From the NCBI GenBank assembly GCA_004193285.1, contig SECP01000001.1, positions 124,001-188,000 of the forward strand: a DNA stretch of 64,000 bases, given 5' to 3'. Both the position numbers and the translations under genes were made by a program. A model generated the notes under the pieces. That model worked only from the letters and a program-made list of their open reading frames with translations, was not told where the DNA came from and did not search any database. This DNA comes from Myxococcales bacterium (GTDB lineage Bacteria; Myxococcota_A; Polyangia; Polyangiales; Polyangiaceae). Of this stretch, positions 4,821 through 46,325 are shown in pieces. The stretch's first letter is position 1; the number at the start of each line of letters is the position of its first letter.

Positions 4821-4836
4821 TGTTGCTGGGGCAGCA
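4821..4836. promoter_or_regulatory. TGYTGC-N4-GCARCA palindrome (possible sigma-54 enhancer site)
   Basis: TGTTGCTGGGGCAGCA fits exactly the palindrome found upstream of the sigma-54 promoters in this window. It lies about 100 bp upstream of binding protein A. A GG/GC pair on the minus strand (near 4779-4791) has 9 instead of 10 bases between, so a functional -24/-12 promoter is not supported here. The match may be fortuitous. Confidence 0.3.
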
Positions 4837-7863: not shown

Positions 7864-8112
7864 GCGCGAACCGCCGTGAAGGGGGCTGCCACCGCCGCAG
7901 CCCTCCCGGCAAAAGCTCTCGTGTCGGCCCAAGGTCTCACTGCCGCGCTACCCGTCACCCGACAGTGCGTCCCTCCGCGCCCCCATCCTTCGGATCCCCG
8001 CTTCGAAGAATACCCGCGACTGCCCGGACCAAGCCCAGCATCATCGCGCCCTCGCGCTCCCGCTCGCGACCCCGTGACCTCGCGTTCGCGACCCCGCGAC
8101 GCCGCGACCTCG

Positions 8113-8197
8113 CGACCGCCACGACCTCGCGACCGCCACGACCTCACGACCGCCACGACCTCACGACCGCCACGACCTCACGACCGCCACGACCTCG
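8113..8197. repeat. 17-bp tandem repeat, five copies
   Basis: Five head-to-tail copies of CGACCGCCACGACCTCR, differing only at the last base. They are flanked by shorter CGACCTCG/CGACCCCG units. Confidence 0.85.
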
Positions 8198-8465
8198 CGA
8201 CCTCACGGCGGCGGCCTCCCCGAGCGCCGTCGACACCCCGGCTTTCAAGACTCCGCACCTTCGCGGGGGCTCGCGTTGGACGTGATGCTGCGTCGCTCGC
8301 GCCCACGCTCCGCTGAGAGTGCCCCTCTCGGCCCGAACTCTACTTCGGATCCGAAGAATGGTTTGAGCCGAGAAGAGCGCTCCCGCCACGCGCGTCATCT
8401 TTCGAATCCGAAAAATGCCTGCGACTCACCGCCCTCGAACCCTCGACGTGGTTGCACGCCCACCG

Positions 8466-8605
8466 ACCTCGCGACCTCGCGACCTCGCGACCTCGCGTTG
8501 ACGACCTCGCGCTGGCGCCCTCGCGCTGGCGCCCTCGCGCTGGCGCCCTCGCGCTGGCGCCCTCGCGCCCTCGCGCCCTCGCGCCCTCGCGTTGGCGACC
8601 TCGCG
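8466..8605. repeat. Mixed 8-bp and 14-bp tandem repeats
   Basis: About four CGACCTCG units, then about four 14-bp units CGCTGGCGCCCTCG, then more 8-bp CGCCCTCG units. The blocks look like slippage products of one another. The following sequence (CGGCGGCGGCC, CGACACCCCGG, TTTCAAGACTCCG) repeats the one after the 17-bp array. Confidence 0.8.
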
Positions 8606-8904
8606 CTGGCCGCGGCTTCGCGACGGCCGCGCCCTCGCGACCTCACGGCGGCGGCCCCCGAGCGCCCTCGACACCCCGGCGTCGGTTTTCAAGACTCCGC
8701 TCCGCGGAGGGTGCCCTTCTCGGCCCAAACTCTACTTCGGATCCGAAGAATGGTTTTTTGAGCCGAGAAGAGCGCTCCCGACGAAACATGGATCCTTCGG
8801 AATCCCAAGAGCGGCTTGTACCGAAAAGAGCGCCCTCTCGACGCGCGGTCATCCTTCGGATCCGCGTATCCGAAGCACGGTTCGAACCGAAGAGAGTGCC
8901 CCCC

Positions 8905-9350
8905 GGAGCGCAATTCACCCTTCGGATCCGAAGAACGGATCGAGCTGAGGGGAGTGCCTCCCGGCGCGCGGTGTAGCCTTCGGATCCGAAGAACGGATCG
9001 AGGTGAAGGGAGTGCCTCCCGGCGCGCGGTGCCTCTTCGGAACCGAAGAACGGATCGAGCTGAGGAGTGCCCCCCGGAGCGCAATTCACCCCTCGGATCC
9101 GAAGAACGGATCGAGGTGAAGGGAGTGCCTCCCGGCGCGCGGTGTAGCCTTCGGATCCGAAGAACGGATCGAGCTGAGGGGAGTGCCTCCCGGCGCGCGG
9201 TGTAGCCTTCGGATCCGAAGAACGGATCGAGGTGAAGGGAGTGCCTCCCGGCGCGCGGTGTAGCCTTCGGATCCGAAGAACGGATCGAGGTGAAGGGAGT
9301 GCCTCCCGGCGCGCGTTGTAGCCTTCGGAACCGAAGAACGGATCAAGCTG
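8905..9350. repeat. 58-bp tandem repeat array with a palindromic core
   Basis: About eight units of 56-58 bp. Each begins with the palindrome CTTCGGATCCGAAG (some copies CTTCGGAACCGAAG), then AACGGATCGAGSTGA, then GGGAGTGCCTCCCGGCGCGCGGTGTAGC. Copies differ by a few bases, and the array decays into more divergent units on its left (from about 8335). No spacers of CRISPR type are present, as the whole period is repeated. It looks like a tandem array of a palindromic interspersed element; function unknown. Confidence 0.85.
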
Positions 9351-9474
9351 AGGAGAGAGCGTTGCGACGACCGTATGGTTGCCCTCGGGTCGCGGGAGCC
9401 ACCGTGTGGCTGAGTAGGGGTGCCGGGAAACGGATCAGACTCTTGGTGCGGCAGCGCGAGGGCGCTAGATACGG

Positions 9475-15583: not shown

Positions 15584-17515
15584 ATGCCTCTCCTCACGCT
15601 CGGCGATCCCCAGGCTCATTCACTTTCGGTACGGGCCAAGGCTCTGGTCTTCGAAGACCCGCGCTCGGTCGAAGTTCTGGCTCGGCTCCGGCAGATAGCC
15701 CCCAGCGAAGCGACCGTGCTCGTCATGGGAGAGACCGGGACCGGCAAGGAGATCGTTGCCCGCCACATCCACGAGCTGAGTCAGCGCGGGGACCGGCCGT
15801 TCGTCGCGGTCAACTGCGGCGCCCTGGCCGACACGCTCATCGAAAGCGAGCTCTTCGGTCACGAAAAGGGCGCCTTCACCGGCGCGCTGAGCAGCAAGCC
15901 CGGGTGGTTCGAGGCGGCGAGTGGGGGAACGCTCTTTTTGGACGAGATCGGCGATCTGCCGCTCGGCATGCAGGTCAAGCTGCTCCGCGTGCTGCAAGAA
16001 GGCGAGGTGGTGAGGGTTGGAGCGCGCCACCCCATCCGCGTTGACGTACGCCTGATCGCGGCGACCAACGTCTCGCTTCAACAAGCGGTCGCGGCTGGTC
16101 ACTTCCGCGAGGACCTTTTTTACCGGTTGAACGTAGCGCCGCTCATCTTGCCGCCCTTGCGGGAGCGCCCCGGCGACATCTTGCCGCTAGTCGAATACTT
16201 CATCGCGTTTTACCAGCAGCGGCTCGGAATCACGGCCCCCACGTTGAGCGAGCAAGCGATCCAGCGCCTACTGCAGCACGGGTGGCCGGGGAACATCCGG
16301 GAGCTCGAGAACGCCGTGCACCACGCGCTGCTCGTGTGCCAGGGAGGCTATGTCACGCCGAAGGACCTGCAGCTCTCCAGCATGCCCGCGCGCGTCAGCC
16401 GCCTGCCGGAGCGAGTCGCTTCCGAGCCGGTGACCCCGGAGTCGGCGTTGTCGGCGGGGCTCGAGCAGCTGTTCGACGCGGACGTTCCCGACTTGTGGGC
16501 AGCCATCGAACGCACGGTGATGAGCAAGGCGTACGAGTACTGCGAGCGCAACCAGCTGCAAACGGCGCGGCTCCTGGGCATCAGCCGCAACATCGTGCGC
16601 GCGCGGCTGCTCGAATATGGCCAAATCCACGGCTCTGTCCGCGGCCCGAGCGCCGCCGTGGAGCCCGCCAACGCACCGCCCGAATCGCAGCGGGTGCTGC
16701 GGCCCTCCGTACCTTGCGTGCGCATCGGCTACCAGCGAATCGGCTTGCTCCCGCTGGTCAAGGAGCACGGCGGGCTGGACGCGGTGCTCGGCACGCGTGG
16801 ATACCGCGTGGAGTGGATCGAGTACCCGGGGGGCATCCAGATGGTGGAGGCGTTTCAGACCAGCCAGCTGTCGTTCGCCGGTGTGGGTGAAGGCCCTCCG
16901 GTGTTCGCTCAAGCGGCCCGCGTTCCTATCGTTTACATCGCGGCGGAGGCTCCGGCCCCGACCGACGAGGCGTTGGTCGTGCCGCGTGGCTCGCAGGTGC
17001 GCGCGGTCCGTGACCTCGCGGGCAAACGCGTCGCCCTCAATCGAGGCGCCAACGTGCACTACTTGCTCATCCGAGCCCTCGAGGAGGCAGGCCTTGCCTA
17101 CGAGGACGTCGAGGTCGTCTACCTCACTCCGGCGGAGGCGCGCGTCGCATTCGAACGGGGGGAAGTGGACGCGTGGGCGATCTGGGCGCCCCTGCTGCAC
17201 GAGCTGCTGGAGAGTGGCAGCGCGCGTGTGCTCCGCGACGCCTCGGGGCTCACGGATAACCCGGTGCTCTACATTGGTAGCGAGAGCTTGGTACAAGCCC
17301 AGCCTGAGCTCGTGAGCCTGTTTTTCGGCCAGCTCGCGGCGGTCGCGGCGGTCGCCGCACCGCACCGCTTCCCGCGCCGCGTGGATGACAGTCTGTTGGC
17401 GGAGCAGCAAGCGGTGGCGGACACGTTCCATCGGCACAAGCTGCTGGGCCAGGCCGTGCGCATCCGAGACGCACGCGCGCCGCGAGTAGTCAGCTCCAAT
17501 ACGGCGCTCGCCTGA
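15584..17515 (+). CDS. SfnR-like sigma-54 activator with C-terminal SsuA-like ligand-binding domain (regulator 1)
   Basis: A 643-residue protein with an unusual domain order. Residues about 20-255 are a sigma-54 AAA+ domain: Walker A GETGTGKE (49-56), sigma-54-contacting GAFTGA (96-101), Walker B LFLDE (117-121), REDLFYRLN (175-183). There is no N-terminal receiver or other sensor domain, as in SfnR, which controls sulfone use in Pseudomonas. A Fis-type helix-turn-helix lies at about 323-342. Residues about 378-620 are homologous to the binding protein Ssu[20 protein letters not shown] and VDAWAIW match the 23,008-24,036 protein. No signal peptide is present, so the domain should bind a cytoplasmic ligand. 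Likely targets are the sigma-54 promoters before ssuD and the porin operon. Confidence 0.9.
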
Positions 17516-17517
17516 GC

Positions 17518-18651
17518 TCACACTCGCCTCGGCACGATGTCGTTGCCGATGATTTCGCCGAACGGCCCGGTCAGATTCAACTCGGCGGGGGCCGCGCTCC
17601 GTGCGAGCGGCAGCTTCGGGAAGAGCAGCTCGGCCGTGCGGTACGCCTCCTCCAAGTGCGGGTAGCCGGAGAGAATGAACGTCTCGATGCCCAGCTCTCG
17701 GTACTCGAGCAATCGGCGCGCAACCGTATCCGGATCGCCGACGAGGGCCGTACCCGCACCCCCGCGTACCAGCCCGACGCCCGCCCAGAGATCGGGGCTG
17801 ACCTCGAGCTTGTCTCGCCGGCCGCCGTGGAGGCTGGACATGCGGCGCTGGCCCTCGGAGTCGAAACGCGAAAACGACTGTTGAGCAGCGGCGATGGCCG
17901 AGTCGTCCAAGTGGCTGATCAGCCGCTCGGCGGCCGCCCACGCCTCGCTGCGGGTCTCACGCACGATGACGTGCAGTCGAATGCCGAAGCGGAGCTTCCG
18001 ACCCCGTGCCTCGGCGCGCTCGCGCATGTCTTGGAGCTTCTGGGCGACGGCGGCCGGAGGCTCGCCCCACGTGAGGTAGACGTCCACGTGCTTGGCCGCG
18101 AGCTCGTGCGCGGCCGGCGAAGACCCCCCGAAGTAGAGCGGAGGATACGGCCGCTGCACGGGTGGGTAGAGGATCTTCGCTCCGCGCACCCGCAAGTGCT
18201 GTCCCTCGAAGTCCAAGGTTTCGCCCGCGCTCACGCGGCGCCAGATCTCCAGGAACTCGTCCGTCTGCCGATAGCGCGCGTCGTGGTCGAGGAAGATGCC
18301 GTCTCCGGCCGCCTCGCTCGGATCGCCCCCGGTGACGACGTTGATGAGCAGTCGGCCTCCCGACAAGCGATCAAGAGTGGCCGCGATGCGGGCACCTGCG
18401 GTCGGCGAAATGATGCCGGGGCGGAGCGCGACCAGGAACTTGAGTTGCTTCGTCGAGGGCATCACGGCCGACGCGACTGCCCAGGCGTCCTCGCAAGAGC
18501 GGCCTGTCGGCAAGAGCACGCCGCCGAAGCCGAGAGAATCCGCTGCTTGCGCGATCTGCTGCAAGTAGGGGAGCGACACCGCTCGCGCGCCCTCGGCGGT
18601 TCCTAGGAAGCGGCTGTCGCCATGGGTGGGTAAGAACCAGAAAAGCTCCAT
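17518..18651 (-). CDS. ssuD: FMNH2-dependent alkanesulfonate monooxygenase
   Basis: A 377-residue luciferase-like monooxygenase starting [17 protein letters not shown], the typical SsuD N-terminus. [35 protein letters not shown] and [19 protein letters not shown] are family hallmarks. SsuD oxidises C1-C14 alkanesulfonates to an aldehyde plus sulfite with FMNH2 from an SsuE-type reductase; no ssuE is seen in this window. It lies downstream of an SsuB-A-C set on the same strand but has its own sigma-54 promoter and enhancer palindrome. The predicted transcript starts only about 5 nt before the ATG. Confidence 0.93.
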
Positions 18652-18665
18652 GCTAGTGACTCACG

Positions 18666-18683
18666 AAGCAAAGTTTTGGCCGG
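18666..18683 (-). promoter_or_regulatory. Sigma-54 (-24/-12) promoter of ssuD
   Basis: Minus-strand CGGCCAAAACTTTGCT. The -24 GG is complementary to 18,680-18,681 and the -12 GC to 18,668-18,669, with exactly 10 bases between; TTTGCT fits the -12 consensus well. The transcript would start near 18,656, about 5 nt from the ATG. Confidence 0.6.
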
Positions 18684-18722: not shown

Positions 18723-18738
18723 TGCTGCTGTAGCAACA
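18723..18738. promoter_or_regulatory. Enhancer palindrome TGYTGC-N4-GCARCA upstream of ssuD
   Basis: TGCTGCTGTAGCAACA, centred about 74 bp upstream of the predicted sigma-54 start of ssuD. Same 16-bp pattern as upstream of the porin operon. Confidence 0.6.
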
Positions 18739-18771: not shown

Positions 18772-19512
18772 TCACGCGGCTCGCCAGGGCTGCAGCTTGG
18801 TCTCCAAAGCTTGCAGCAAACGGTCGGAAAGCTTGCCCAGCAGCGCAAAGCTGAAAATCGCGGCGAGGACGAGCTCGATGCGGCTCGTGCTTTGTCCGTC
18901 CACCATCAAGTATCCAAGCCCTCGGCTCGCGCCGAGCAGCTCCGCCGCGACGACGAACATCCACGACAGGCCGAGGCCGCTGCGAAGACCCGTCAGGTAG
19001 GCGGGCAGCGCCGCCGGAACCAGCACGTGCCGCGAGAGCGCCCAGCCGCCGTAGCCGTTCATCACCCCGACCTCCACCAAGCGCCGATCGATCGCCAAGA
19101 TGCCGGACAGCAGATTCAAATACACGGGGAAGAACGCGCCCACCGCGATCAGCGCCACCTTGGAGGTTTCTTGGATCCCGAGCCAGAGCAAGAAGAGCGG
19201 CACCCAGGCGAGGGACGGAATGCTGCGCAGCGCCTGCAGCGAGGGATCCAAAAGCTCGCGCAGTTTCTCGGAGCGACCGCAGCTTACCCCCAGCAACGTG
19301 CCAAAAGCGGCGCCGAGGGCAAAGCCGAGCACGAGCCGCGTCAGCGTCGACACCACGTGCTCGAGGAGCTCGCCGCTCCGCGAAAGCTCCAGCAATGTCA
19401 GCCCGATCGCGGTCGGCGCCGGCAGCCAGTTCGGCGGCAACACGCCGACGCGCGCCATGAGCTCCCACAGCCCGACGACGACCCCCGGTACGATCAGGCC
19501 GCGCGTTTTCAT
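18772..19512 (-). CDS. ssuC: ABC transporter permease, SsuC type
   Basis: A 246-residue inner-membrane permease with about six hydrophobic segments, including SIPSLAWVPLFLLWLGI and VALIAVGAFFPVYLNLLSG, the SsuC-typical stretches. The EAA-type loop is VEVGVMNGYGGWALSRHVLVPAALPAYLTGLR. It follows its binding protein by 7 bp and belongs to the order ATPase, binding protein, permease, then ssuD after a 120-bp gap with a separate promoter. It imports the aliphatic sulfonate captured by the Tat/lipo-type binding protein encoded upstream. Confidence 0.92.
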   Translation of the reverse strand: MKTRGLIVPGVVVGLWELMARVGVLPPNWLPAPTAIGLTLLELSRSGELLEHVVSTLTRLVLGFALGAAFGTLLGVSCGRSEKLRELLDPSLQALRSIPSLAWVPLFLLWLGIQETSKVALIAVGAFFPVYLNLLSGILAIDRRLVEVGVMNGYGGWALSRHVLVPAALPAYLTGLRSGLGLSWMFVVAAELLGASRGLGYLMVDGQSTSRIELVLAAIFSFALLGKLSDRLLQALETKLQPWRAA

Positions 19513-19519
19513 GCTCGGC

Positions 19520-20485
19520 TCAGCTGCGGCTCAGCTCTTGAGTGAAGGACGAGTCGATGAGCGAGCCCGCCACTTGGGGAACGTCCACCTCGGCTTTGAC
19601 AACGCCGCTCTTTTTGAGGACGTCACCGGCGGCTAGGATCACCGTCTTTTGCCGCTCGCCGATGCTAGGCGACGAGATGTCCGTCCGCGCGAGCACCGCC
19701 TTGCTGACCGCTTCGGTGAGGTGGGCTTCCTTGGCGAGCGCCTGCTGCAGCTCGGCCGGGTTCTTGAGCGCGTCCGCGCGGGCGCGTTCGTAAGCTGCGA
19801 TGACCGCCTTCACGAGCGCGGGGTAGCGTTGAGCGAGCTCCTCGCGCACGTTGAGGACGCCGTAGCTGTTGAACTCCGGGTTGCGAAAAAACAGGGTCGA
19901 CCCGTGCTCCAGCTCGGAGCTTGCCATCATTGGGTCTAGTCCGGACCACGCGTCCACGTCGCCTCGTTCGAGTGCCTTCTGGCCTTCCGGATGCTGGAGG
20001 GGGACGAGCTCGATGTCCTTCTCGGTGAGGCCCACGGAGTCCAGCGCACGCAGCAAGAAGATGAACGGGTCCGTGCCTCGCGTTACGGCCACGCGCTTGC
20101 CCTTCAGGTCCGCCAGGGCGCGGATACCGGTGCTCGGACGCGTGACCAACGCGGTCCACTCCGGCTTCGAGTACACGTAGACGGCCCGGATGGGGTTACC
20201 GTTGGCGCGCCCGACGAACGCGGCCGCGCCGGCGGTGGAGCCGAAGTCCACGCTCTTCGAGTTCAGGAACTCGAGCGCCTTGTTGGAGCCCAGGCTCTTC
20301 ACCCACTCGACCTTCACGCCCTCTTCGGAGAGGCCCTGCTCCAGATAACCCTTCTGCTTCAGGAGCAATCCTACCGGGTTATAGGTCGCGTAGTCCAAGC
20401 GGACCACGGCGGGCTTCTCCTTGCTGGCGCACGCCCCTAGAGCCGCGCTTCCTAGAATCGTCATCAAGCTACGTCGAGTAATCAT
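19520..20485 (-). CDS. ssuA: Aliphatic sulfonate ABC transporter substrate-binding protein
   Basis: A 321-residue SsuA-type protein. The N-terminus ITRRSLMTILGSAALGACAS carries both a twin-arginine motif and a lipobox (LGAC), so it may be a Tat-exported lipoprotein. The body shows LDYATYNPVGLLLKQKGYLEQ, SKSVDFGSTAGAAAFVGRANG, LKGKRVAVTRGTDPFIFLLRAL and RGDVDAWSGLDP, the usual SsuA ligand-pocket regions. It overlaps the upstream ATPase gene by 4 bp (ATGA) and precedes the permease by 7 bp. Together the three genes form a complete importer. Confidence 0.9.
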   Translation of the reverse strand: MITRRSLMTILGSAALGACASKEKPAVVRLDYATYNPVGLLLKQKGYLEQGLSEEGVKVEWVKSLGSNKALEFLNSKSVDFGSTAGAAAFVGRANGNPIRAVYVYSKPEWTALVTRPSTGIRALADLKGKRVAVTRGTDPFIFLLRALDSVGLTEKDIELVPLQHPEGQKALERGDVDAWSGLDPMMASSELEHGSTLFFRNPEFNSYGVLNVREELAQRYPALVKAVIAAYERARADALKNPAELQQALAKEAHLTEAVSKAVLARTDISSPSIGERQKTVILAAGDVLKKSGVVKAEVDVPQVAGSLIDSSFTQELSRS

Positions 20486-21345
20486 GAGTTTCCTTGCTGG
20501 GTGCGGCGAGCGAGATGAGCTTGCCCGCGCTGAATGGGGATGGGAGAGGCGGCGACGGTAGGGGAGGACGGCACTTCGTCCGCGCCCCCGAACTCGCGCA
20601 GCACGCGGCGCCGCAATCGCGAGAAGGCGCTGCTGGTTCGATCCCGCGGGCGCGCCAGGTCGACCGTGAGCTGCTCGCGGATTCGGCCCGGCCTTTCGCT
20701 GAGAACCACGATGCGGTCGGCGAGGTAGACCGCTTCCTCGATGTCGTGGGTCACGAGCAGTGTCGTCGCGCGAGCGAGCTCGCGGACGCGGGATAGCTCT
20801 TCCTGCAAGCGAGCCTTGGTGAACGCGTCCAGGGCCGCGAACGGCTCATCCAGCAGCAGCACGGAGGGACGGCGGGTCAACGCACGCGCCAGCGCGACGC
20901 GCTGAGCCATGCCGCCCGAGAGCTGGTGGGGGTAGGCGCGCGCGAATTCAGCGAGCCCCATCAGCGCGAGTTGCTCCGTGATGAGCGCGTGCTTCTCCGC
21001 GGCGGCCCTGCCCGGAAGCGCGAAGGCGACGTTGTCCGCCACGGTCAGCCAGGGAAACAAGCGGTGCTCTTGAAAGACCATGGCGCACTCCGCCGATGGC
21101 CCCAGCACCGGGGAGCCATTCACCGAAACCTCGCCTTCGCTCGGCCGCTCCAGACCTGCCACCAGGCGGAGTAAGGTGCTCTTGCCGCATCCGCTCCGAC
21201 CAACCAGCGCAACGACTTCACCGCGGGAGAGGTCGAGCTCGATACCGGAGAGCGCGGTGACTCGGTGCCCGTCGACCCCGCGAAAATCCTTCGTGACCCG
21301 GTGGAGTCGCACCGCAGCGCTGGGGCGATTGCCGGCGAGGAGCAT
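20482..21345 (-). CDS. ssuB: ABC transporter ATP-binding protein, SsuB type
   Basis: A 287-residue ATPase from the ATG at 21,345 (MLLAGNRPSA); an in-frame ATG at 21,393 would add 16 basic residues. Walker A GRSGCGKS, Q-loop FQEHRLFPW, signature LSGGMAQR, Walker B VLLLDEPFAALD and VTHDIEEA are all present. It is the first gene of the minus-strand ABC unit and is divergent from the porin operon. The intergenic region carries the enhancer palindromes of the porin promoter, and no sigma-54 promoter is seen in the direction of this gene. Confidence 0.92.
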   Translation of the reverse strand: MLLAGNRPSAAVRLHRVTKDFRGVDGHRVTALSGIELDLSRGEVVALVGRSGCGKSTLLRLVAGLERPSEGEVSVNGSPVLGPSAECAMVFQEHRLFPWLTVADNVAFALPGRAAAEKHALITEQLALMGLAEFARAYPHQLSGGMAQRVALARALTRRPSVLLLDEPFAALDAFTKARLQEELSRVRELARATTLLVTHDIEEAVYLADRIVVLSERPGRIREQLTVDLARPRDRTSSAFSRLRRRVLREFGGADEVPSSPTVAASPIPIQRGQAHLARRTQQGNS

Positions 21346-21417
21346 CGACGCGCCCTGAGCAATCCTCGTGCCGCATCGGGCACCGCGGCGCATCGCTAGA
21401 AAGCTTCGAGGCTAGGT

Positions 21418-21446: not shown

Positions 21447-21462
21447 TGTTGCTCTAGCAGCA
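21447..21462. promoter_or_regulatory. Enhancer palindrome TGYTGC-N4-GCARCA upstream of the porin operon
   Basis: TGTTGCTCTAGCAGCA, a near-perfect dyad centred about 85 bp upstream of the predicted sigma-54 start at about 21,540. Confidence 0.65.
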
Positions 21463-21512: not shown

Positions 21513-21530
21513 TTGGCACCGCTCCTGCTT
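21513..21530 (+). promoter_or_regulatory. Sigma-54 (-24/-12) promoter of the porin-ssu-Rieske operon
   Basis: TTGGCACCGCTCCTGCTT: perfect -24 TGGCAC (GG 21,515-16), 10 bases, GC 21,527-28. Start predicted near 21,540, 51 nt before the porin ATG. Confidence 0.75.
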
Positions 21531-23007: not shown

Positions 23008-24036
23008 ATGAACGCTCAATCATCCAAAGCTTTCCTCGCGCTCCTCGCCGCGCTGCCAGCGCTGCTGCTCGGTTGCCAAAAGCAAAGCGACGACGGCGCG
23101 GCGAAGTCCTCACCGAGCGCGGCACCGGTGGCCGCCGTTCCCGCGCCTCAGCCCGCTGGAGTCGTGCGCATCGGCTACCAGAAGATCGGCGCGCCCTTCT
23201 TGCTCAAATCCCGCAGCGCGGATCTCGACAAGCACTTGTCGGAGAAGGGCGCGAAGGCCGAGTGGACGGAGTTCAAGCACGGCCCGGCCGTCCTCGAAGC
23301 CATTAAGGCCAAAGAGGTGGACGTGGGCTACGTCGGTGAGACACCGCCCGTGTTCGCGCAGGCGGGCGGGGTGGACTTCGTCTATGTGGCGACGGATCCT
23401 CCCGCGCCCAAGGCCGAGGCGTTGATCGTGCGCAAGGACTCGCCGCTCAAGAGCCTCAAAGACCTCAAAGGCAAGAAGGTCGCCCTGAACCGCGGCTCCA
23501 ACGTGCATTACTTGCTCGTTCGGGCGCTCGAGAGCGCGAAGCTCACGCTCAAGGACATCGAGGTGGTGTACCTGGCCCCGGGTGACGCGCGGCCTGCCTA
23601 CGATAGCGGCAAGGTGGACGCCTGGGTGATCTGGGATCCGTTCCTGGCCGCCGCGGAGAACGCCGGCTCTCGCCAGCTGGCGAGCGGCGAAGGCTTGGTG
23701 GACAACCGCTTGTTCTACGTTGCGCGTCGTCAATTCGCCGAGGAGCACCCGGAGCTTTTGCGCGCCACCCTCGACGAGTTCAAGGCCCTGAGCGATTGGG
23801 AGAGCAAGAACCCCGAAGAGGCATCGAAGATCCTCGCCGCTTCGTCAGGCGTCGCCTACGAAGCTCTGCTGCTCTCGGAGAAGCGTCACGCGTACGGCAT
23901 CTTGCCCGTCACTGACGAGGTGCTCGACGCCCAGCAGAAGATCGCCGATTCGTTCCGCAAGCTCGACTTGATTCCCAAGGACATCAAGACACGGGACGCC
24001 TTCTTGCCGGCGGCCGTCTACGCAGACAAGCCATGA
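23008..24036 (+). CDS. ssuA: Sulfonate ABC transporter substrate-binding lipoprotein
   Basis: A 342-residue SsuA. The lipobox is LLLGCQK (Cys about 23) after MNAQSSKAFLALLAALPA. It shows VVRIGYQKIGAPFLLKSR, EVDVGYVGETPPVFAQAGGVDFVYVATDPPAPKAEALIV, KGKKVALNRGSNVHYLLVRAL and KVDAWVIWDPFL, standard aliphatic-sulfonate-binding motifs. The same motifs are found in the C-terminal domains of both sigma-54 regulators of this window, so receptor and regulator probably recognise related ligands. It follows the porin by 28 bp and overlaps the permease gene by 4 bp. Confidence 0.93.
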   Translation: MNAQSSKAFLALLAALPALLLGCQKQSDDGAAKSSPSAAPVAAVPAPQPAGVVRIGYQKIGAPFLLKSRSADLDKHLSEKGAKAEWTEFKHGPAVLEAIKAKEVDVGYVGETPPVFAQAGGVDFVYVATDPPAPKAEALIVRKDSPLKSLKDLKGKKVALNRGSNVHYLLVRALESAKLTLKDIEVVYLAPGDARPAYDSGKVDAWVIWDPFLAAAENAGSRQLASGEGLVDNRLFYVARRQFAEEHPELLRATLDEFKALSDWESKNPEEASKILAASSGVAYEALLLSEKRHAYGILPVTDEVLDAQQKIADSFRKLDLIPKDIKTRDAFLPAAVYADKP

Positions 24037-24836
24037 GTCGAAGGGCCGCTCTCGAGCTGGCCCGCCGCCGCGCGCGACCGGTGCTCCCCTGGGTGGCGCC
24101 GGTCGTGCTCGTGCTGCTTTGGGAGCTGTCTTCGCGCCGCGGCTGGATTTCCGCAGATTTGGCGCCAGCGCCGCTAGACGTGCTGCGTGCCGCGATCAGC
24201 GCGACCAAGCACCAGCAGCTCTTGACTCACTTGCTGGTGAGCACCGGACGCGCAGGCCTCGGGACGCTCATCGGCTCGGCAATTGGCCTGACTCTCGGCC
24301 TCGCCACCGGCCTCTCACGCCCGCTGCAGTTGCTGCTGGACGGTCCCCTCCAAATGCTGCGCGCGGTACCCGCCCTCGCGCTCGTTCCTTTGGTCATCCT
24401 TTGGTTCGGCCTGGGGGAGACAGCCAAGATCTTCATCGTGGTGGTGACCGTGGTTTTCCCCGTCTACTTGAACACTTTTCACGGTGTGCGCAGCGTCGAC
24501 CCGCAGCTCGTGGAGATGGCGCGAGTTTACGACGTGCGCGGGTTCGCACTCTACCGCGAGGTCATTTTGCCAGGGGCGCTCCCTTCGATCCTCGTCGGCC
24601 TGCGCTTCGCGCTCGGCATGTCGTGGCTCGTCATCATCATCGCCGAGACGCTAGGGGCGACGAGCGGCCTGGGCTACCTCGCCGGCAACGCGCGGGACTT
24701 CATGCAGATGGACATGCTCGTGCTCACGATCGTGCTGTGGGGCATGTTGGGCAAGGGCGCGGATCTCCTCGCGCGCGGCCTCGAACGCTGGTTATTGCCT
24801 TGGCAGCCCAAGGCCCAACGAATGAGCGCGGATTAG
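24033..24836 (+). CDS. ssuC: Sulfonate ABC transporter permease
   Basis: A 267-residue permease with LLWELSSRRGWISADLAPAP at the N-terminus, MLRAVPALALVPLVILWFGLGE, VFPVYLNTFHGVRSVDPQLVEMARVY and the coupling segment REVILPGALPSILVGLRFALG. These are typical SsuC features with about six transmembrane segments. It overlaps the ssuA stop (ATGA) and is 6 bp from the ssuB start, so it is part of one tightly coupled operon. Confidence 0.94.
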   Translation: MSRRAALELARRRARPVLPWVAPVVLVLLWELSSRRGWISADLAPAPLDVLRAAISATKHQQLLTHLLVSTGRAGLGTLIGSAIGLTLGLATGLSRPLQLLLDGPLQMLRAVPALALVPLVILWFGLGETAKIFIVVVTVVFPVYLNTFHGVRSVDPQLVEMARVYDVRGFALYREVILPGALPSILVGLRFALGMSWLVIIIAETLGATSGLGYLAGNARDFMQMDMLVLTIVLWGMLGKGADLLARGLERWLLPWQPKAQRMSAD

Positions 24837-24842
24837 GCAATA

Positions 24843-25667
24843 ATGACGAGCTACAAGTCTCCCTGCGGCGCTTCTGTCGTCCTCGATGGCCTCTCCAAGA
24901 GCTTCGGTGAGCGGCAGGTGCTGGCGGACGTAGAGCTGGCAATTCCACCCGGGCAATTCGTTGCGATCGTGGGTCGCAGCGGCTCCGGCAAGAGCACCCT
25001 GCTGCGCCTGCTCTGCGGGCTGGAGGAACCGACGGCGGGCGGTGCGCGCGTCGTCGACGCCGACGGCCGAGACGCGAAGGGCCAGGTTCGCGTGGTTTTT
25101 CAAGAGCCGCGGCTTTTGCCCTGGAAGACGCTGCTCGCCAATGTGGGCATCGGCGGGCGGGGAACGAGCGACGCGCTGGCGCGCCAAGTGCTCGCTTCGG
25201 TCGGGCTCGGTGATCGCTTGAACGACTACCCCGCCGTTCTCTCCGGTGGCCAGAAGCAGCGCGTGGCGCTCGCTCGCGCGCTCGTGCACGAGCCGTGCGT
25301 GATGCTGCTGGACGAGCCGTTCGGCGCGCTCGACGCGCTCACCCGAATCGAGGCGCAGCGCTTGGTGGAAGACTTGTGGCGCGAGCGCGGCTTCACGGCG
25401 CTCCTCGTTACCCACGACGTGACCGAGGCGGTGCTGCTCGCGGATCGCGTGATCTTGATCGAGGAAGGGCGAATCGCGGAGAGCTTCGAGGTGGCGGTGC
25501 CACGCCCGCGCCGTCGTGATAACGCGGAGCTAGCCAAGATCGCGAGTGCGGTGCTGGACCGGATCTTCAGCGGCAGCGCCGAGCGCAACGCCGCGTCACC
25601 CCCGAGCGGGCCGCGCGAAAAGCAGAGCCCGACCCCGACCATCGCGGCCGTGCAGGCCGGAATCTGA
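24843..25667 (+). CDS. ssuB: Sulfonate ABC transporter ATP-binding protein
   Basis: A 274-residue ATPase: Walker A GRSGSGKS, Q-loop FQEPRLLPW, signature LSGGQKQR, Walker B VMLLDEPFGALD, H-loop VTHDVTEA. The last 35 residues (rich in Ala, Ser, Pro) extend beyond the normal SsuB C-terminus. It completes the SsuABC importer of the porin operon and is followed 19 bp later by the Rieske oxygenase gene. Confidence 0.93.
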   Translation: MTSYKSPCGASVVLDGLSKSFGERQVLADVELAIPPGQFVAIVGRSGSGKSTLLRLLCGLEEPTAGGARVVDADGRDAKGQVRVVFQEPRLLPWKTLLANVGIGGRGTSDALARQVLASVGLGDRLNDYPAVLSGGQKQRVALARALVHEPCVMLLDEPFGALDALTRIEAQRLVEDLWRERGFTALLVTHDVTEAVLLADRVILIEEGRIAESFEVAVPRPRRRDNAELAKIASAVLDRIFSGSAERNAASPPSGPREKQSPTPTIAAVQAGI

Positions 25668-40549: not shown

Positions 40550-40834
40550 TCAGCGCAAAAGGTAGGGAATTTTGACGACGATGGCGTCTTTGGGGCAGTC
40601 GTTCTCGCACGCGAGGCAGTACCAGCACTCGTCGAAGCGCATGTGCGCCTTACCGGTCTCGGGGTTCACGGCGAGGCAATCCACCGGGCACGAGTCGATG
40701 CACACCTTGCACCCCTTGATGCATTTGTCCTCGTTCACGATCACGGGCACATCGAAGCGCTGGGTGGTTTGAGCGGCGCGGGCCCGCGTGGCTTCAGCCG
40801 CTTTGACCGCCTCTCGGTTTTCCAGGTTGCTCAT
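40550..40834 (-). CDS. Ferredoxin with two [4Fe-4S] motifs, AsfB/AprB-like
   Basis: A 94-residue protein from ATG 40,834. A roughly 30-residue N-terminal stretch precedes CIKGCKVCIDSCP (C-x3-C-x2-C-x3-CP, one residue wider than normal in the first gap) and CWYCLACENDCP. Two [4Fe-4S] clusters are expected. It overlaps the flavoprotein stop (ATGA). The gene pair resembles asfAB of Pseudomonas putida arylsulfonate desulfonation and the adenylylsulfate reductase AprAB arrangement, so it should pass electrons to or from the flavoprotein. Confidence 0.83.
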   Translation of the reverse strand: MSNLENREAVKAAEATRARAAQTTQRFDVPVIVNEDKCIKGCKVCIDSCPVDCLAVNPETGKAHMRFDECWYCLACENDCPKDAIVVKIPYLLR

Positions 40835-42583: not shown

Positions 42584-42601
42584 TTGCAAGGTCCGGGCCG
42601 C
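42584..42601 (-). promoter_or_regulatory. Sigma-54 (-24/-12) promoter of the AsfA-like operon
   Basis: Minus-strand CGGCCCGGACCTTGCA: the GG (complement of 42,598-99) and GC (complement of 42,586-87) are 10 bases apart, with a perfect TTGCA. Start near 42,574. Confidence 0.7.
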
Positions 42602-42642: not shown

Positions 42643-42698
42643 TGCTGCTCCACGAGCACGGCTGCTTCTGGAGCAGCAGCGGTGCTGACTGCCCAGCA
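42643..42698. promoter_or_regulatory. Three 16-bp enhancer palindromes at 20-bp spacing
   Basis: Sites at 42,643 (TGCTGCTCCACGAGCA), 42,663 (TGCTTCTGGAGCAGCA) and 42,683 (TGCTGACTGCCCAGCA). They start exactly 20 bp apart, about two helix turns, so they lie on one face of the DNA. Centres are about 76, 96 and 116 bp upstream of the predicted AsfA-like start. Each keeps most of TGYTGC-N4-GCARCA. Confidence 0.6.
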
Positions 42699-42855: not shown

Positions 42856-44811
42856 ATGCCCGTCCTCACCTTGCCCGGTACCGGCCCGTCGCCCACCGTG
42901 CGCGCGAAGGCCCTCGTCTTCGAAGATCCGCGCTCCGCGGAGCTGCTGGCGCAGATCGAGCGCGTGGCCCCCAGCGACGCCACCGTGCTCGTCACGGGCG
43001 AGACCGGAACCGGTAAGGAGATCGTAGCGCGGCACCTCCACGAGCTGAGCCGTCGCCACCACGAGGCATTCGTGGCCGTGAACTGCGGCGCGATCGCCGA
43101 GCAGCTCGTGGAAAGCGAGCTGTTCGGCCATGAAAAGGGCGCGTTCACTGGCGCCCAAACGAGTCGCGCGGGCTGGTTCGAGACCGCCCACCGCGGCAGC
43201 CTCTTCTTGGACGAGGTAGGGGACCTCTCACTGCCGCTGCAGGTGAAGCTCCTGCGCGTTCTTCAGGAGGGCGAGGTGGTGCGGCTCGGCTCTCGCGCGA
43301 CGCGCGCCATCGACGTTCGTTTGATCGCGGCCACCAACGTGGACCTGGAAGAGGCGATGGCGGCAGGACATTTCCGCGAGGACCTGTTCTACCGGTTGAA
43401 CGTCACCCAGCTTCGGCTCTTGCCGCTCAGGGAGCGCCTCGGCGACATCCTCCCCCTGGTGCATCACTTCATCGGCGTTTATCAGCGCAAGCTGGACGTT
43501 CAGATATCGGAGCTGTCGCCTTCCGCCGAGCAGCGCCTGCTGGAGCACTCCTGGCCGGGCAACATCCGTGAGCTGGAGAACGTGGTCCATCACGCTTTGC
43601 TCGTAGCGAGAGGTGAGCGCGTCGAAGCCGACGATCTGCGGCTTTCGCCGCAGAAAGCGCGCACTAAGACGAGCTTGCCGGTGGAGGATGGCTTCGCTCT
43701 GCTCGAGACGGCGCTCGCTCGCATCTACGAAGCGCCCGCCCCGAAGCTGTTCGAGCGCATCGAGGAGACGGTGATGCGCACCGCTTACGCGCACGCCGGC
43801 AAGAACCAGCTCAAGACCGCTCGCCTCCTGGACATCAGCCGCAACGTGGTGCGCGCTCGCCTGCTCTCTTATGGAGACCTGGCCGGCAGCTCCCGTCCGC
43901 CCCCCTCGGAGCGTCCGGTCGCGGCCGCTCCGAGCAGCGGGCGACACACGCGCGTGCGGCTGGGCTTTCACAAGTTCGGCGTCCTCACCGTGGTCAAAGC
44001 GCTGGGCACGTTCGACGCGCTCCTCGCGGCCAAGGGCATCCACGTGGAGTGGTGCGAATTTCCCGCTGGTCCGGAGGTTGCGAGCGCCATTCAAGCAGGG
44101 GACGTAGCGCTCGGCGTCGTCGGAGATTGCCCGTCGGTCCTCGCGCAGGCGGACGACGCCAGGTTCGTTTACGTGGCCGCCGAGGCTCCCGCTCCGGAAG
44201 CGGAAGCGATCATCGTGCACGAGGACTCGGATATCGAGAGCGTCGCCGATCTGCGCGGCCGCAGCGTGGCGCTCAAGCGCGGCTCCAACGTCCACTACCT
44301 GCTCATTCGCGCGCTCGAGGAGGCAGGGGTGGACTACGGGGACGTGCGATTGACCTTTGCGGTCCCGGAGAAGGCCAAGCAGGCGTTCGAATCGCGCCAC
44401 GTGGACGCTTGGGTGATCTGGGATCCGCTGCTCTCCAGCATCCAGCACACCGCTCGCGCCCGCGTGCTGCGAGACGGCCGCGGGCTAACGCTCAACACCG
44501 CGTATTACCTGGCTAATCGCGAGTTCGCGCAAGCTCACCCCGAGCTCGTGGACGAGCTCCTGGTGCACGCGGTCAAGGCGGTGGAGTGGGCCAAGAGCAA
44601 CACGTCTTTGGTGGCCGAGCTGGTCTCCGCGCAGCTCAACATCTCGTCGCGCGCGATCGCCAGCTGGCTTCAGCGGCATCCCACCACCGGTGCGCTGACG
44701 CCGGAGCTGATGGCGTCGCAGCAATCGATCGCCGACACACTCTACCGCTTGCAGCTTCTGCCCAAGCCGGTTCAGGTCGCGGACGCAGGGTGGCGTCGCT
44801 TGGCCAGTTGA
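42856..44811 (+). CDS. SfnR-like sigma-54 activator with C-terminal SsuA-like ligand-binding domain (regulator 2)
   Basis: A 651-residue paralogue of regulator 1. Walker A GETGTGKE is at 48-55, GAFTGA at 95-100, LFLDE for Walker [10 protein letters not shown] at 174-182 and a Fis-type HTH (KNQLKTARLLDISRNVVRARL) at about 317-337. From about 367 a binding-protein-like domain follows: [45 protein letters not shown]. There is no receiver domain and no signal peptide. It is encoded between the AsfA-like operon (divergent) and the third transporter (same strand, 44 bp), both with sigma-54 promoters, so these are its probable targets. Likely ligand: an aryl- or alkylsulfonate inside the cell. Confidence 0.9.
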   Translation: MPVLTLPGTGPSPTVRAKALVFEDPRSAELLAQIERVAPSDATVLVTGETGTGKEIVARHLHELSRRHHEAFVAVNCGAIAEQLVESELFGHEKGAFTGAQTSRAGWFETAHRGSLFLDEVGDLSLPLQVKLLRVLQEGEVVRLGSRATRAIDVRLIAATNVDLEEAMAAGHFREDLFYRLNVTQLRLLPLRERLGDILPLVHHFIGVYQRKLDVQISELSPSAEQRLLEHSWPGNIRELENVVHHALLVARGERVEADDLRLSPQKARTKTSLPVEDGFALLETALARIYEAPAPKLFERIEETVMRTAYAHAGKNQLKTARLLDISRNVVRARLLSYGDLAGSSRPPPSERPVAAAPSSGRHTRVRLGFHKFGVLTVVKALGTFDALLAAKGIHVEWCEFPAGPEVASAIQAGDVALGVVGDCPSVLAQADDARFVYVAAEAPAPEAEAIIVHEDSDIESVADLRGRSVALKRGSNVHYLLIRALEEAGVDYGDVRLTFAVPEKAKQAFESRHVDAWVIWDPLLSSIQHTARARVLRDGRGLTLNTAYYLANREFAQAHPELVDELLVHAVKAVEWAKSNTSLVAELVSAQLNISSRAIASWLQRHPTTGALTPELMASQQSIADTLYRLQLLPKPVQVADAGWRRLAS

Positions 44812-44826
44812 ATCACGAGCAGCCGT

Positions 44827-44842
44827 TGGCTCGGGACTTGCT
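44827..44842 (+). promoter_or_regulatory. Sigma-54 (-24/-12) promoter of the third transporter
   Basis: TGGCTCGGGACTTGCT: GG at 44,828-29, 10 bases, GC at 44,840-41; only one deviation in the -24 box. Start near 44,853, about 3 nt before the ATG. No enhancer palindrome was found in the 150 bp upstream, which is coding. Confidence 0.7.
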
Positions 44843-44855
44843 TATCGGACGCGCG

Positions 44856-46325
44856 ATGACTCTAAGAGCTCTTGGTGCACTTTGCCTGGGCGCGCTCGCC
44901 TTGGCGCTCGGCTGCAAGTCCAAACCAGCGGGCGAGCAACCCACCGGTCAGACTGCGGAGCCCGCGGCCGCCACCGAAACCATCCGCGTCGCGATCGGTA
45001 CGCAAGACACGACCATCAATTGCGCGGCGGGTGGACCCATCGTGCGCGAGCTTCACCTCCTCGAGAAGTTCCTGCCGCACGAAGGGCGTTACAAGTCGGT
45101 CAAGTACGACATCCACTGGGAGAACCAGCCGACGGGTGCCCAGCTCAACAGCAAGTACCTGGCAAACCAGCTGGACATCGTGCAGATGGCGGACTTTCCG
45201 TCGGTGCTCGGGGCGACCGCGCTCAAAGCCGCGGGCGACAAGGTGCAGTCGTTTTACATCGCCACCCTTTCGGCGGGGATCAACGGCGCCGGCAACGCGA
45301 TCTTGGTGCCCTCGGAGTCCAAGGTGCAGTCCCTCGGCGAGCTGAAGGGCAAGAAGATTTCGGTGCCGTTCGGCTCCACCGCGCACGCCATGCTCATCCG
45401 CGCGCTCCAAGACTTGGGCTGGGACCCGAACAAGGACGTCGAGATCGTGACCCAGACGCCGGAGGTCGGCGGCAGCGCGTTGAAGGCGAATCAAATCGAT
45501 GCCCACGCCAACTTCGTGCCCTTCGGCGAGCTCTTCCCGTTCCGCGGCTTCGCCAAGAAGATCTACGACGGCAGCTCGACGGGCGTGACGACCACCCACG
45601 GCGTTCAGGTTCGCTCGGACTACGCCACGAAGTACCCCGAGGTGGTGGTCGCCTACCTCAAGGCGACGTTGGAGGCGGACCGCCTCTACAAGGAAGACCC
45701 CGAGGGGCTCTCAGAAAAGCTCGCGAAGTGGACGGGCGTCGACGCGGAGGTCTACTACGCCTTCCACGGTCCCCAAGGCATTCAGACGCGCGACTACACG
45801 CTCAAACCGGAGCACATCCAGGCGATCAGCAAGGCTCAAGAGTCGCTCAAGGTGCTGAAGAAGGTGACGAAGGAGATCGACGTCGCCAGCTACGTGAACG
45901 ACAAGTTCATTCGGCAAGCGGCCAAGGAATACGGGCTGGACTACGACGCTCGGCTCAAAGACTACGCTGCCCAGCCCTTCGCGGGTAACGCGCTGGACAC
46001 GGGCGCGGCCGTGACGGAGCCGAAGCTCGCCGGTCAGATCTGGGTGAAGGACGAGCCCAAGGTGCGCCTCTACAGCACGCCAGAAGCGACGTTTGCGGCC
46101 CTCGCGCGCCTCGAGCAAGAAGGCAAGAAGCCGCGCGTGACGTTCGTACACGACCGCGACACCGGCAACAAACTGTTCGCGGACAAGGTCTGGTACGTGC
46201 GCGGCCCCAAGGGGCTGTCCGCGTTCTTGCTGAAGAAGTCGGCCGAGACGTGGGCCGGGAAGAACGGTGGGCAAGTCATCGGCTTCGACGCCGCCCGCCA
46301 GGCCACGGGGCAGGCCAGCCTATGA
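44856..46325 (+). CDS. ABC substrate-binding lipoprotein fused to a NosL-like C-terminal domain
   Basis: A 489-residue protein from ATG 44,856. The lipobox is LALGCKS (Cys about 20). Residues about 45-370 form an SsuA/AsfC-type binding domain (RVAIGTQDTTINCAAGG, NQLDIVQMADFPSVLG, LKGKKISVPFGSTAHAMLIRAL). Residues about 390-485 match NosL: VTFVHDRDTGNKLFADKVWYVRG and GLSAFLLKKSAETWAGKNGGQVIGFDAA. The Cys-Gly-Met copper motif of NosL proper is absent. It is the first gene of a complete importer with permease and ATPase. The role of the extra domain (docking, folding, metal) is unknown. Confidence 0.85.
   Translation: MTLRALGALCLGALALALGCKSKPAGEQPTGQTAEPAAATETIRVAIGTQDTTINCAAGGPIVRELHLLEKFLPHEGRYKSVKYDIHWENQPTGAQLNSKYLANQLDIVQMADFPSVLGATALKAAGDKVQSFYIATLSAGINGAGNAILVPSESKVQSLGELKGKKISVPFGSTAHAMLIRALQDLGWDPNKDVEIVTQTPEVGGSALKANQIDAHANFVPFGELFPFRGFAKKIYDGSSTGVTTTHGVQVRSDYATKYPEVVVAYLKATLEADRLYKEDPEGLSEKLAKWTGVDAEVYYAFHGPQGIQTRDYTLKPEHIQAISKAQESLKVLKKVTKEIDVASYVNDKFIRQAAKEYGLDYDARLKDYAAQPFAGNALDTGAAVTEPKLAGQIWVKDEPKVRLYSTPEATFAALARLEQEGKKPRVTFVHDRDTGNKLFADKVWYVRGPKGLSAFLLKKSAETWAGKNGGQVIGFDAARQATGQASL

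Follow-up and report, generated by a model that had tools for sequence, protein, structure and literature searches.

An SfnR-like sigma-54 activator fused to an SsuA-type domain behind its helix-turn-helix, in an organosulfur island of a Polyangiaceae bacterium

Regulator 1 is the 643-amino-acid product of a gene at 15584..17515 in the window considered here, a 64,000-nucleotide stretch of a Myxococcales bacterium of the Polyangiaceae (assembly GCA_004193285.1, contig SECP01000001.1, positions 124,001 to 188,000). Its architecture is firm: a sigma-54 AAA+ domain is followed by a Fis-type helix-turn-helix (HTH), a linker and a domain with the fold of SsuA, the periplasmic binding protein for aliphatic sulfonates. 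The fusion is real and is a maintained variant of the SfnR activators, undescribed in the literature searched for such regulators, with subscription journals mostly outside that search. Its role is a matter of weighing, and the reading preferred here, at a probability of about 0.6, is that cytoplasmic sulfonate sensing gates sigma-54 transcription of the genes for sulfonate uptake and cleavage. Coordinates are collected in Table 1.

The open reading frame (ORF) is continuous from ATG to stop with no internal stop codon. Pfam assigns Sigma54_activat to residues 22-187 (3.6e-70), AAA_lid_14 to 193-265 and NMT1 to 408-581 (5.5e-12), and HTH_8 scores 18.3 bits at 307-345, below its cut-off of 22. 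From NCBIfam, SsuA_fam (TIGR01728) covers residues 379-591 at 1.2e-46 (159.2 bits, narrowly under the cut-off of 163.5) and NF008588 reaches 187.3 bits against a cut-off of 299, while phmmer against solved structures matches the SsuA proteins of E. coli (2X26, 3.1e-46) and X. citri (3E4R, 1e-42). The AlphaFold2 model, built on 61 aligned sequences from the window and named loci, has a mean predicted local distance difference test score (pLDDT) of 87 and consists of two confident parts and a disordered linker (residues 351-374, below 50); in the SsuA-type domain the mean is above 90 in every 10-residue block from 381 to 630. The predicted template modelling score (pTM) is 0.49, so that the mutual placement of the two parts is not predicted. 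Foldseek relates the first part to FlrC, FleQ and NtrC1 and the second to X. citri SsuA (3KSJ, 3KSX and 3E4R) with a template modelling score on the target of 0.81. A first-pass annotation, made from the letters alone, had proposed this succession of activator with GAFTGA, HTH and SsuA-type domain; Pfam, NCBIfam, AlphaFold2 and Foldseek agree on it, and the C-terminal region matches the periplasmic-binding-protein fold. Also present are the motifs it had named as common to the fused domain and the periplasmic SsuA at 23008 (of the NRGSNVHYLL type, and VDAWAIW or VDAWVIW), the two being 39.5% identical.

The AAA+ domain starts near residue 20, leaving no N-terminal sensor and no space for a signal peptide. 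The fused domain sits behind the activator where no signal peptide is possible, and the cytoplasmic location claimed for it holds. The sensor had also been said to occupy an unusual position, behind the HTH, and that part stands: Francke 2011 (PMC3162934), in the portion drawn on here, sets out four basic sigma-54 activator architectures, none of them with a sensor behind the HTH. The implication that a sensor had been moved from its normal place does not stand. By its sequence relatives the core of regulator 1 is SfnR-like, a class without a sensor, and the fusion would have added a sensor behind the HTH. The nearest tail-less relatives of residues 1-350 are activators of about 350-410 residues, 55-66% identical, that occur in Pseudomonas, Burkholderia, Methylococcaceae, Verrucomicrobium and Polyangiaceae among others. 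Two are linked to msu genes in P. aeruginosa: one, 64% identical over 352 amino acids, immediately precedes msuE, ssuD and a gene of the acyl-CoA dehydrogenase family, with a small hypothetical ORF between, and the other (57%) lies at the end of the msu cluster. The name SfnR as used here rests on this neighbourhood, msu being grouped with sfnR1 and sfnR2 of P. aeruginosa in the part of PMC8234197 used. SfnR, SfnR1 and SfnR2 of Pseudomonas, like regulator 1, have no N-terminal sensor, and the HTH helix is the same in the first P. aeruginosa activator; SfnR ends after the HTH, whereas regulator 1 continues with a 260-residue SsuA domain.

Could the added domain still hold a sulfonate? In X. citri SsuA, as far as the part of PMC3839906 used here describes it, the ligand is held by Gln36, Gly68, Gly86 and Ser141, with Trp185 facing the pocket; for TauA the corresponding part of PMC6906117 gives Gln, Gly, Gly and Thr. 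Regulator 1 has Q384, G417, G435, N490 and W534 at these places. Across 22 aligned fused rows, three of which (G006) repeat the JAQSWN assembly of the sister species, both Gly residues are kept in 22/22, Gln in 18/22 (replaced by His in the regulator 2 group and by Ser in So ce26) and Trp in 19/22 (Ala in the group of regulator 3), and Asn stands in place of Ser141 in 22/22. Asn here is not confined to the fusions: among 34 SsuA-like proteins 22 have Ser and four Asn, and the SsuA at 23008 belongs to the latter. Regulator 1 thus has in common with SsuA the fold, 32-40% identity and the Gln/Gly/Gly/Trp pocket. SsuA is an exported partner of an ATP-binding cassette (ABC) transporter, unlike the domain of regulator 1, which has no signal peptide, is fused to a cytoplasmic activator, carries Asn for Ser141 and has a shortened C-terminal lobe.

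Selection has acted on both halves. Against the JAQSWN orthologue the ratio of nonsynonymous to synonymous substitution rates (dN/dS) of regulator 1 is 0.053 in the core and 0.092 in the binding domain, which argues that it is maintained as a single protein.

How widespread is such a protein? A full-length fusion is present in 7/183 genomes of the order, own included, in 2/398 sampled from the phylum of P. citronellolis and, among 377 sampled from the organism's own phylum, in its own genome only; these surveys scored 3-12 first-look candidates per genome at strict cut-offs, so that misses are possible. Within the order the own genome (G000) and that of the sister species (G006) have three copies each, and G174, G027, G161, G162 and G163 one each. 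Of 72,556 plasmid records, 71 contain a single stretch that matches 80% or more of regulator 1; the 60 listed of these 71 belong to Pantoea, Azospirillum sp. B510 and Methylocystis iwaonis, with 41.5-46.7% identity and 93-96% coverage, and a query with the L120 protein adds Klebsiella pneumoniae. These proteins, which the records label in some cases a regulator ('sigma-54-dependent Fis family transcriptional regulator' in Pantoea and Klebsiella) and in others a sulfonate binding protein, have the domain order of regulator 1, though in the core tree they form a clade separate from it. The architecture is therefore uncommon, as first thought, yet not unique, and a fusion confined to the organism's own lineage is rejected by the copies in these four genera. 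A contig scan for relatives used two peptide patterns, with 80 of 99 matches kept, and a scan of viral contigs (14 loci) gave activator-domain relatives only, of which L017 and L018 were taken into the trees. On plasmid p1 of Pseudomonas silvicola (L149) the match to the fused gene is split into four pieces and the annotation shows two short ORFs in its place; the gene is probably broken there.

The link to organosulfur genes proposed at the outset is borne out: ssuD and the ssu operons adjoin regulator 1, and ssuD lies near the fusion in 6/6 other records opened, with at most five genes between. In Azospirillum the fused gene is divergent from msuE-sfnG and one gene before ssuD; in two Methylocystis records sfnG is the third and ssuD the sixth gene from it; in two Pantoea records it is divergent from ssuD, as it is in Klebsiella, there with a 117-nucleotide ORF between.

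Pseudomonas SfnR acts on sfn and msu genes, its sulfone and sulfonate targets being switched on when sulfate is limiting, and a candidate enhancer is shared by SfnR-only and fused loci. The dyad TGYTGC-N4-GCARCA, read off fused-locus promoters upstream of -24/-12-like sites, occurs exactly four times in the window (4821, 18723, 21447 and 38114) against 0.04 expected, and a -24/-12-like site accompanies those at 18723 (ssuD) and 21447 (both ssu operons). The Pantoea vagans stretch has only two exact dyads, both between ssuD and the fused gene, and the Methylocystis stretch only two, upstream of sfnG and of ssuD. Azospirillum has three with at most one mismatch (0.19 expected) on both sides of the fused gene, before msuE and the ssuD operon, and in G027 two of three stand before ssuD. 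The 22 SfnR-only loci, which were not used to define the dyad, hold 11 exact copies against 0.5 expected, and eight of these have a promoter-like site as partner. The one exact dyad of the P. aeruginosa msu region is 99 nucleotides before TGGTACGGCCCTTGCT, after which comes msuE, and three further dyads with one mismatch are all in coding regions. That the targets of regulator 1 are sulfonate transport and monooxygenase genes is well supported.

Candidate -24/-12 promoters were sought with our own weights on the general consensus. At the first threshold the 64 kb hold four sites, against 5-9 simulated, the fourth (48711) inside a histidine-kinase-like ORF; at the strict threshold there are three, against 0-3 simulated with a mean of 1.4. 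With counts so ordinary the positions alone are informative: all three strict sites are 28-77 nucleotides before the starts of ssu or binding-protein operons, and the same places are occupied in the sister species, where a further -24/-12-like site (L140:6880) stands beside a dyad (L140:6921). Elsewhere, ssuD has such a match before it in G027, G564, G365 and Pantoea vagans. In Azospirillum matches stand ahead of the msuE operon and of the operon containing ssuD, and in Methylocystis ahead of sfnG and of ssuD.

Regulator 1 would on this basis combine sensing and sigma-54 activation in one component, its SfnR-like core being flexibly tethered to a cytoplasmic SsuA-type domain. The core would bind the dyads; imported sulfonates would bind in the cleft of the C-terminal domain and so alter assembly or DNA binding of the AAA+ core, whose ATP hydrolysis would then open the sigma-54 holoenzyme at the two ssu operons and ssuD. 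Sulfonate as the ligand, and the activating sign of the response, are what we infer from the sequences.

A number of observations weigh against this reading. The C-terminal part of the SsuA domain in regulator 1, as the first-pass annotation had not noted, is about 25-30 residues short, a stretch that regulators 2 and 3, its two paralogues, keep; a similar stretch is absent in G027, G162 and G163 (in the last two by reading), and none of the five pocket residues falls in it. The 16 fused loci have 14 exact dyads against 0.17 expected, with 12/14 paired, a count that is partly circular as the loci defined the motif, with 7/16 lacking an exact copy and some being species duplicates. The pairing test is lenient, 85 such promoter-like matches occurring in 64 kb, and even so the dyads at 4821 and 38114 are unpaired by it, the latter lying inside a coding region. 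The 47 SsuA-only loci also have four exact dyads against 0.33 expected, one of them paired. The strict -24/-12 sites of the window are not above chance in number, nor is there an excess in the P. aeruginosa stretch (one match, 2.37 expected); Pantoea dispersa has no site at ssuD at the scan threshold, and stretches L129 and L130 have nine and five matches at that threshold, so that a single match there says little. The sites at 21373, 44827, 18682 and 42600, with 28-33 nucleotides from first base to start codon, would give almost leaderless messages and are weakened by it; a later GTG would ease the short leader of the ssuB-like gene, and no such alternative start is evident for the binding protein or ssuD. 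Neither regulator 2 nor regulator 3 is adjacent to ssuD. Finally, a Sorangium cellulosum strain (So0008-312, L082) has lost the sensor and kept the core, its SfnR-type gene running in frame for some 15 residues into the SsuA domain and then meeting a stop.

The domain may, instead of sensing sulfonates, read sulfur sufficiency, with sulfate, sulfite or another anion as an anti-inducer that switches the activator off. Such control is familiar from the LysR regulators CysB and Cbl, in which, likewise in sulfur control, a DNA-binding part is followed by an effector domain that also has the type II binding-protein fold; regulator 1 is no member of that family, its DNA binding and motor function being those of a sigma-54 AAA+ activator and its sensor belonging by sequence to SsuA. 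The uniform change to Asn at Ser141, a side-chain bond in SsuA, would suit this alternative, as would the need for some other sulfur-status sensor in Polyangiaceae fusion genomes without a CysB orthologue. With an E. coli CysB query the best LysR proteins in G000, G006, G027 and G174 are 28-30% matches, and in G161 there is none at 1e-15, so that the five tested Polyangiaceae carriers seem, by such searches, to be without CysB; SfnR of P. putida, to go by the title of a cited paper, is under CysB. The same query gives a 64% match in G183 and a 93% match in G564, and G564 still has the fusion, which speaks against the sufficiency idea and disposes of any general rule that the fusion replaces CysB. 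The pocket Trp retained in most fused rows argues the same way, and X. citri SsuA, in the part of PMC3839906 used, is stabilised by sulfonates and not by sulfate. Sensing of sulfur sufficiency is judged unlikely.

Judged quite unlikely is that the domain no longer binds a ligand at all, having a role in oligomerisation or stability or being in decay, with activity set by expression level as in sensor-less SfnR. The residues missing from regulator 1 and the like stretch in G027, G162 and G163 would fit that, as would the remnant in the Sorangium strain and the SfnR-only relatives that live without the domain; set against them are the purifying selection on the binding domain (dN/dS 0.092), the kept pocket residues and confident fold, and the linkage with sulfonate genes in distant lineages. 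That a frameshift or assembly error joined an activator gene to an ssuA gene is barely credible, such a chimera being rejected by the same architecture in single ORFs of three paralogues, other genomes and annotated plasmids, and by the dN/dS of both halves.

The own genome has three fused paralogues on one contig (C96): regulator 1, regulator 2 and, outside the window, regulator 3 (C96:64808-66553). Regulators 1 and 2 have Walker A, Walker B and GAFTGA. In regulator 3 DAVPTS replaces GAFTGA, the Walker-B DE is DA and the GK of Walker A is GR, with DALPNS, DA and GR at these motifs in the sister species. An activator without GAFTGA should be unable to activate sigma-54. Despite these losses regulator 3 is the most conserved of the three, its dN/dS against the JAQSWN orthologue being 0.022 in the core and 0.029 in the binding domain (regulator 2, 0.074 and 0.050). 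Exact dyads stand directly before its start in both species (L144:9790, L143:9531), and it is possibly a non-activating competitor. The pockets also differ, with Gln/Trp in regulator 1, His/Trp in regulator 2 and Gln/Ala in regulator 3; from these unlike residues the three probably respond to different organosulfur ligands or differ in role.

Trees of the core and of the binding domain bear on the history of the fusion. In the core tree seven Pseudomonadota fusions (96/94) fall outside a clade (97/93) of the Polyangiaceae fusions and all 27 SfnR-only rows; neither the fused rows nor the SfnR-only rows form one clade (approximately unbiased test, p 1.5e-7 and 7.7e-6); these groups were defined by architecture, although the test followed a first look at a quick tree. 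The binding-domain tree unites the eleven Polyangiaceae rows in a single clade (100/99) and sets all fused rows apart from the others, though weakly (56/82); three alternatives tested against it, separate origins among them, are not rejected (p 0.315, 0.255 and 0.134). The core tree was made after dropping 9/59 rows (three G006 duplicates, A_L118, A_L013, one Methylocystis and the long branches A_L018, A_L015 and OUT_L006) and the careful binding-domain tree after dropping 5/43; at the earlier quick-tree step up to 17 binding-domain and six core rows were taken out because they nearly duplicated others, and a length filter discarded short pieces. A single ancient fusion with later losses and two separate fusions are both conceivable on these topologies, and sensor loss has happened at least once, in Sorangium. 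A bolder scenario, conceivable though doubtful, would make the fused form ancestral to SfnR: the sensor-less Pseudomonas SfnR would have lost the tail and come under CysB, and Polyangiaceae would have kept the tail and duplicated it into ligand-tuned paralogues, with regulator 3 a sigma-54-inactive competitor for the same dyads.

Table 1. Positions of regulator 1, its domains, neighbouring genes and candidate regulatory sites in the window
Feature	Position	Strand	Basis
Regulator 1, SfnR-SsuA fusion, 643 amino acids	15584..17515	+	ORF and family searches
AAA+ sigma-54 activator domain with lid, residues 22-265; GAFTGA at residue 96	15647..16378	+	Pfam
Fis-type HTH, SfnR-type, residues 307-345	16502..16618	+	Pfam (weak), AlphaFold2, P. 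aeruginosa comparison
Disordered linker, residues 351-374	16634..16705	+	pLDDT <50
SsuA-type (type II periplasmic-binding-protein fold) domain, residues 378-637	16715..17494	+	NCBIfam, phmmer, AlphaFold2, Foldseek
ssuD, FMNH2-dependent alkanesulfonate monooxygenase, convergent with regulator 1	17518..18651	-	TIGR03565 617.7 bits, cut-off 518.2
Weak -24/-12-like site CGGCCAAAACTTTGCT, 31 nucleotides before ssuD ATG	18667..18682	-	scan
Enhancer-like dyad TGCTGCTGTAGCAACA upstream of ssuD	18723..18738	.	motif search
ABC permease (SsuC-like), minus-strand operon	18772..19512	-	position and reading, no family search
SsuA-family binding protein, minus-strand operon	19520..20485	-	TIGR01728 225.3 bits
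ABC ATPase (SsuB-like), first gene of minus-strand operon; ATG 21345, alternative GTG 21312	20482..21345	-	ORF reading
-24/-12 site CGGCACGAGGATTGCT, first base 28 nucleotides before ssuB-like ATG	21358..21373	-	scan; sister site L140:9576
Enhancer-like dyad TGTTGCTCTAGCAGCA between divergent ssu promoters	21447..21462	.	motif search; L140:9650
-24/-12 site TGGCACCGCTCCTGCT, first base 77 nucleotides before porin-like ATG	21514..21529	+	scan; sister site L140:9716
Periplasmic SsuA, plus-strand operon	23008..24036	+	family search
ssuC and ssuB, plus-strand operon	24033..25667	+	family search
Fumarate-reductase/APS-reductase-like flavoprotein gene	40831-42567	-	family search
-24/-12-like site CGGCCCGGACCTTGCA before flavoprotein gene 40831-42567 (-)	42585..42600	-	scan; L141:10291
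Enhancer-like dyad, one mismatch, between flavoprotein gene and regulator 2	42663..42678	.	motif search; exact in L141:10335
Regulator 2, same architecture, 651 amino acids, pocket Gln replaced by His	42856..44811	+	family search, alignment
-24/-12 site TGGCTCGGGACTTGCT, first base 29 nucleotides before binding-protein gene behind regulator 2	44827..44842	+	scan; identical in L141:12513
SsuA/TauA-family binding protein downstream of regulator 2	44856..46325	+	family search (from 44820)
Exact dyad TGTTGCTGGGGCAGCA between binding-protein gene and enolase-like gene	4821-4836	.	nearby weak -24/-12-like site only (4848, -)

The stretch of the window from 3652 to 46325 is an organosulfur island, with about seven SsuA-family binding proteins (five checked by family search) and TauD-like, DszC/SfnB-like, CysK, CysE and fumarate-reductase/APS-reductase-like (APS, adenosine 5'-phosphosulfate) genes. 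It also contains a tandem array at 8868-9351 with a 58-bp unit in 8.4 copies (87% matches), and further short-unit arrays at 8057-8641.

If sulfonate sensing by regulator 1 is true, a transport binding protein has been reused as a cytoplasmic sensor, and Nature would have supplied a sulfonate biosensor with a readable DNA target. For bacteria without CysB it would be a direct molecular explanation of a sulfonate response. In Pantoea and Klebsiella records a protein of this kind lies beside ssuD, and its automatic annotation varies between regulator and transport protein. For the activators at large, proteins of the regulator 1 type would be a clean test case for control of an AAA+ ring by a sensor placed behind the HTH.

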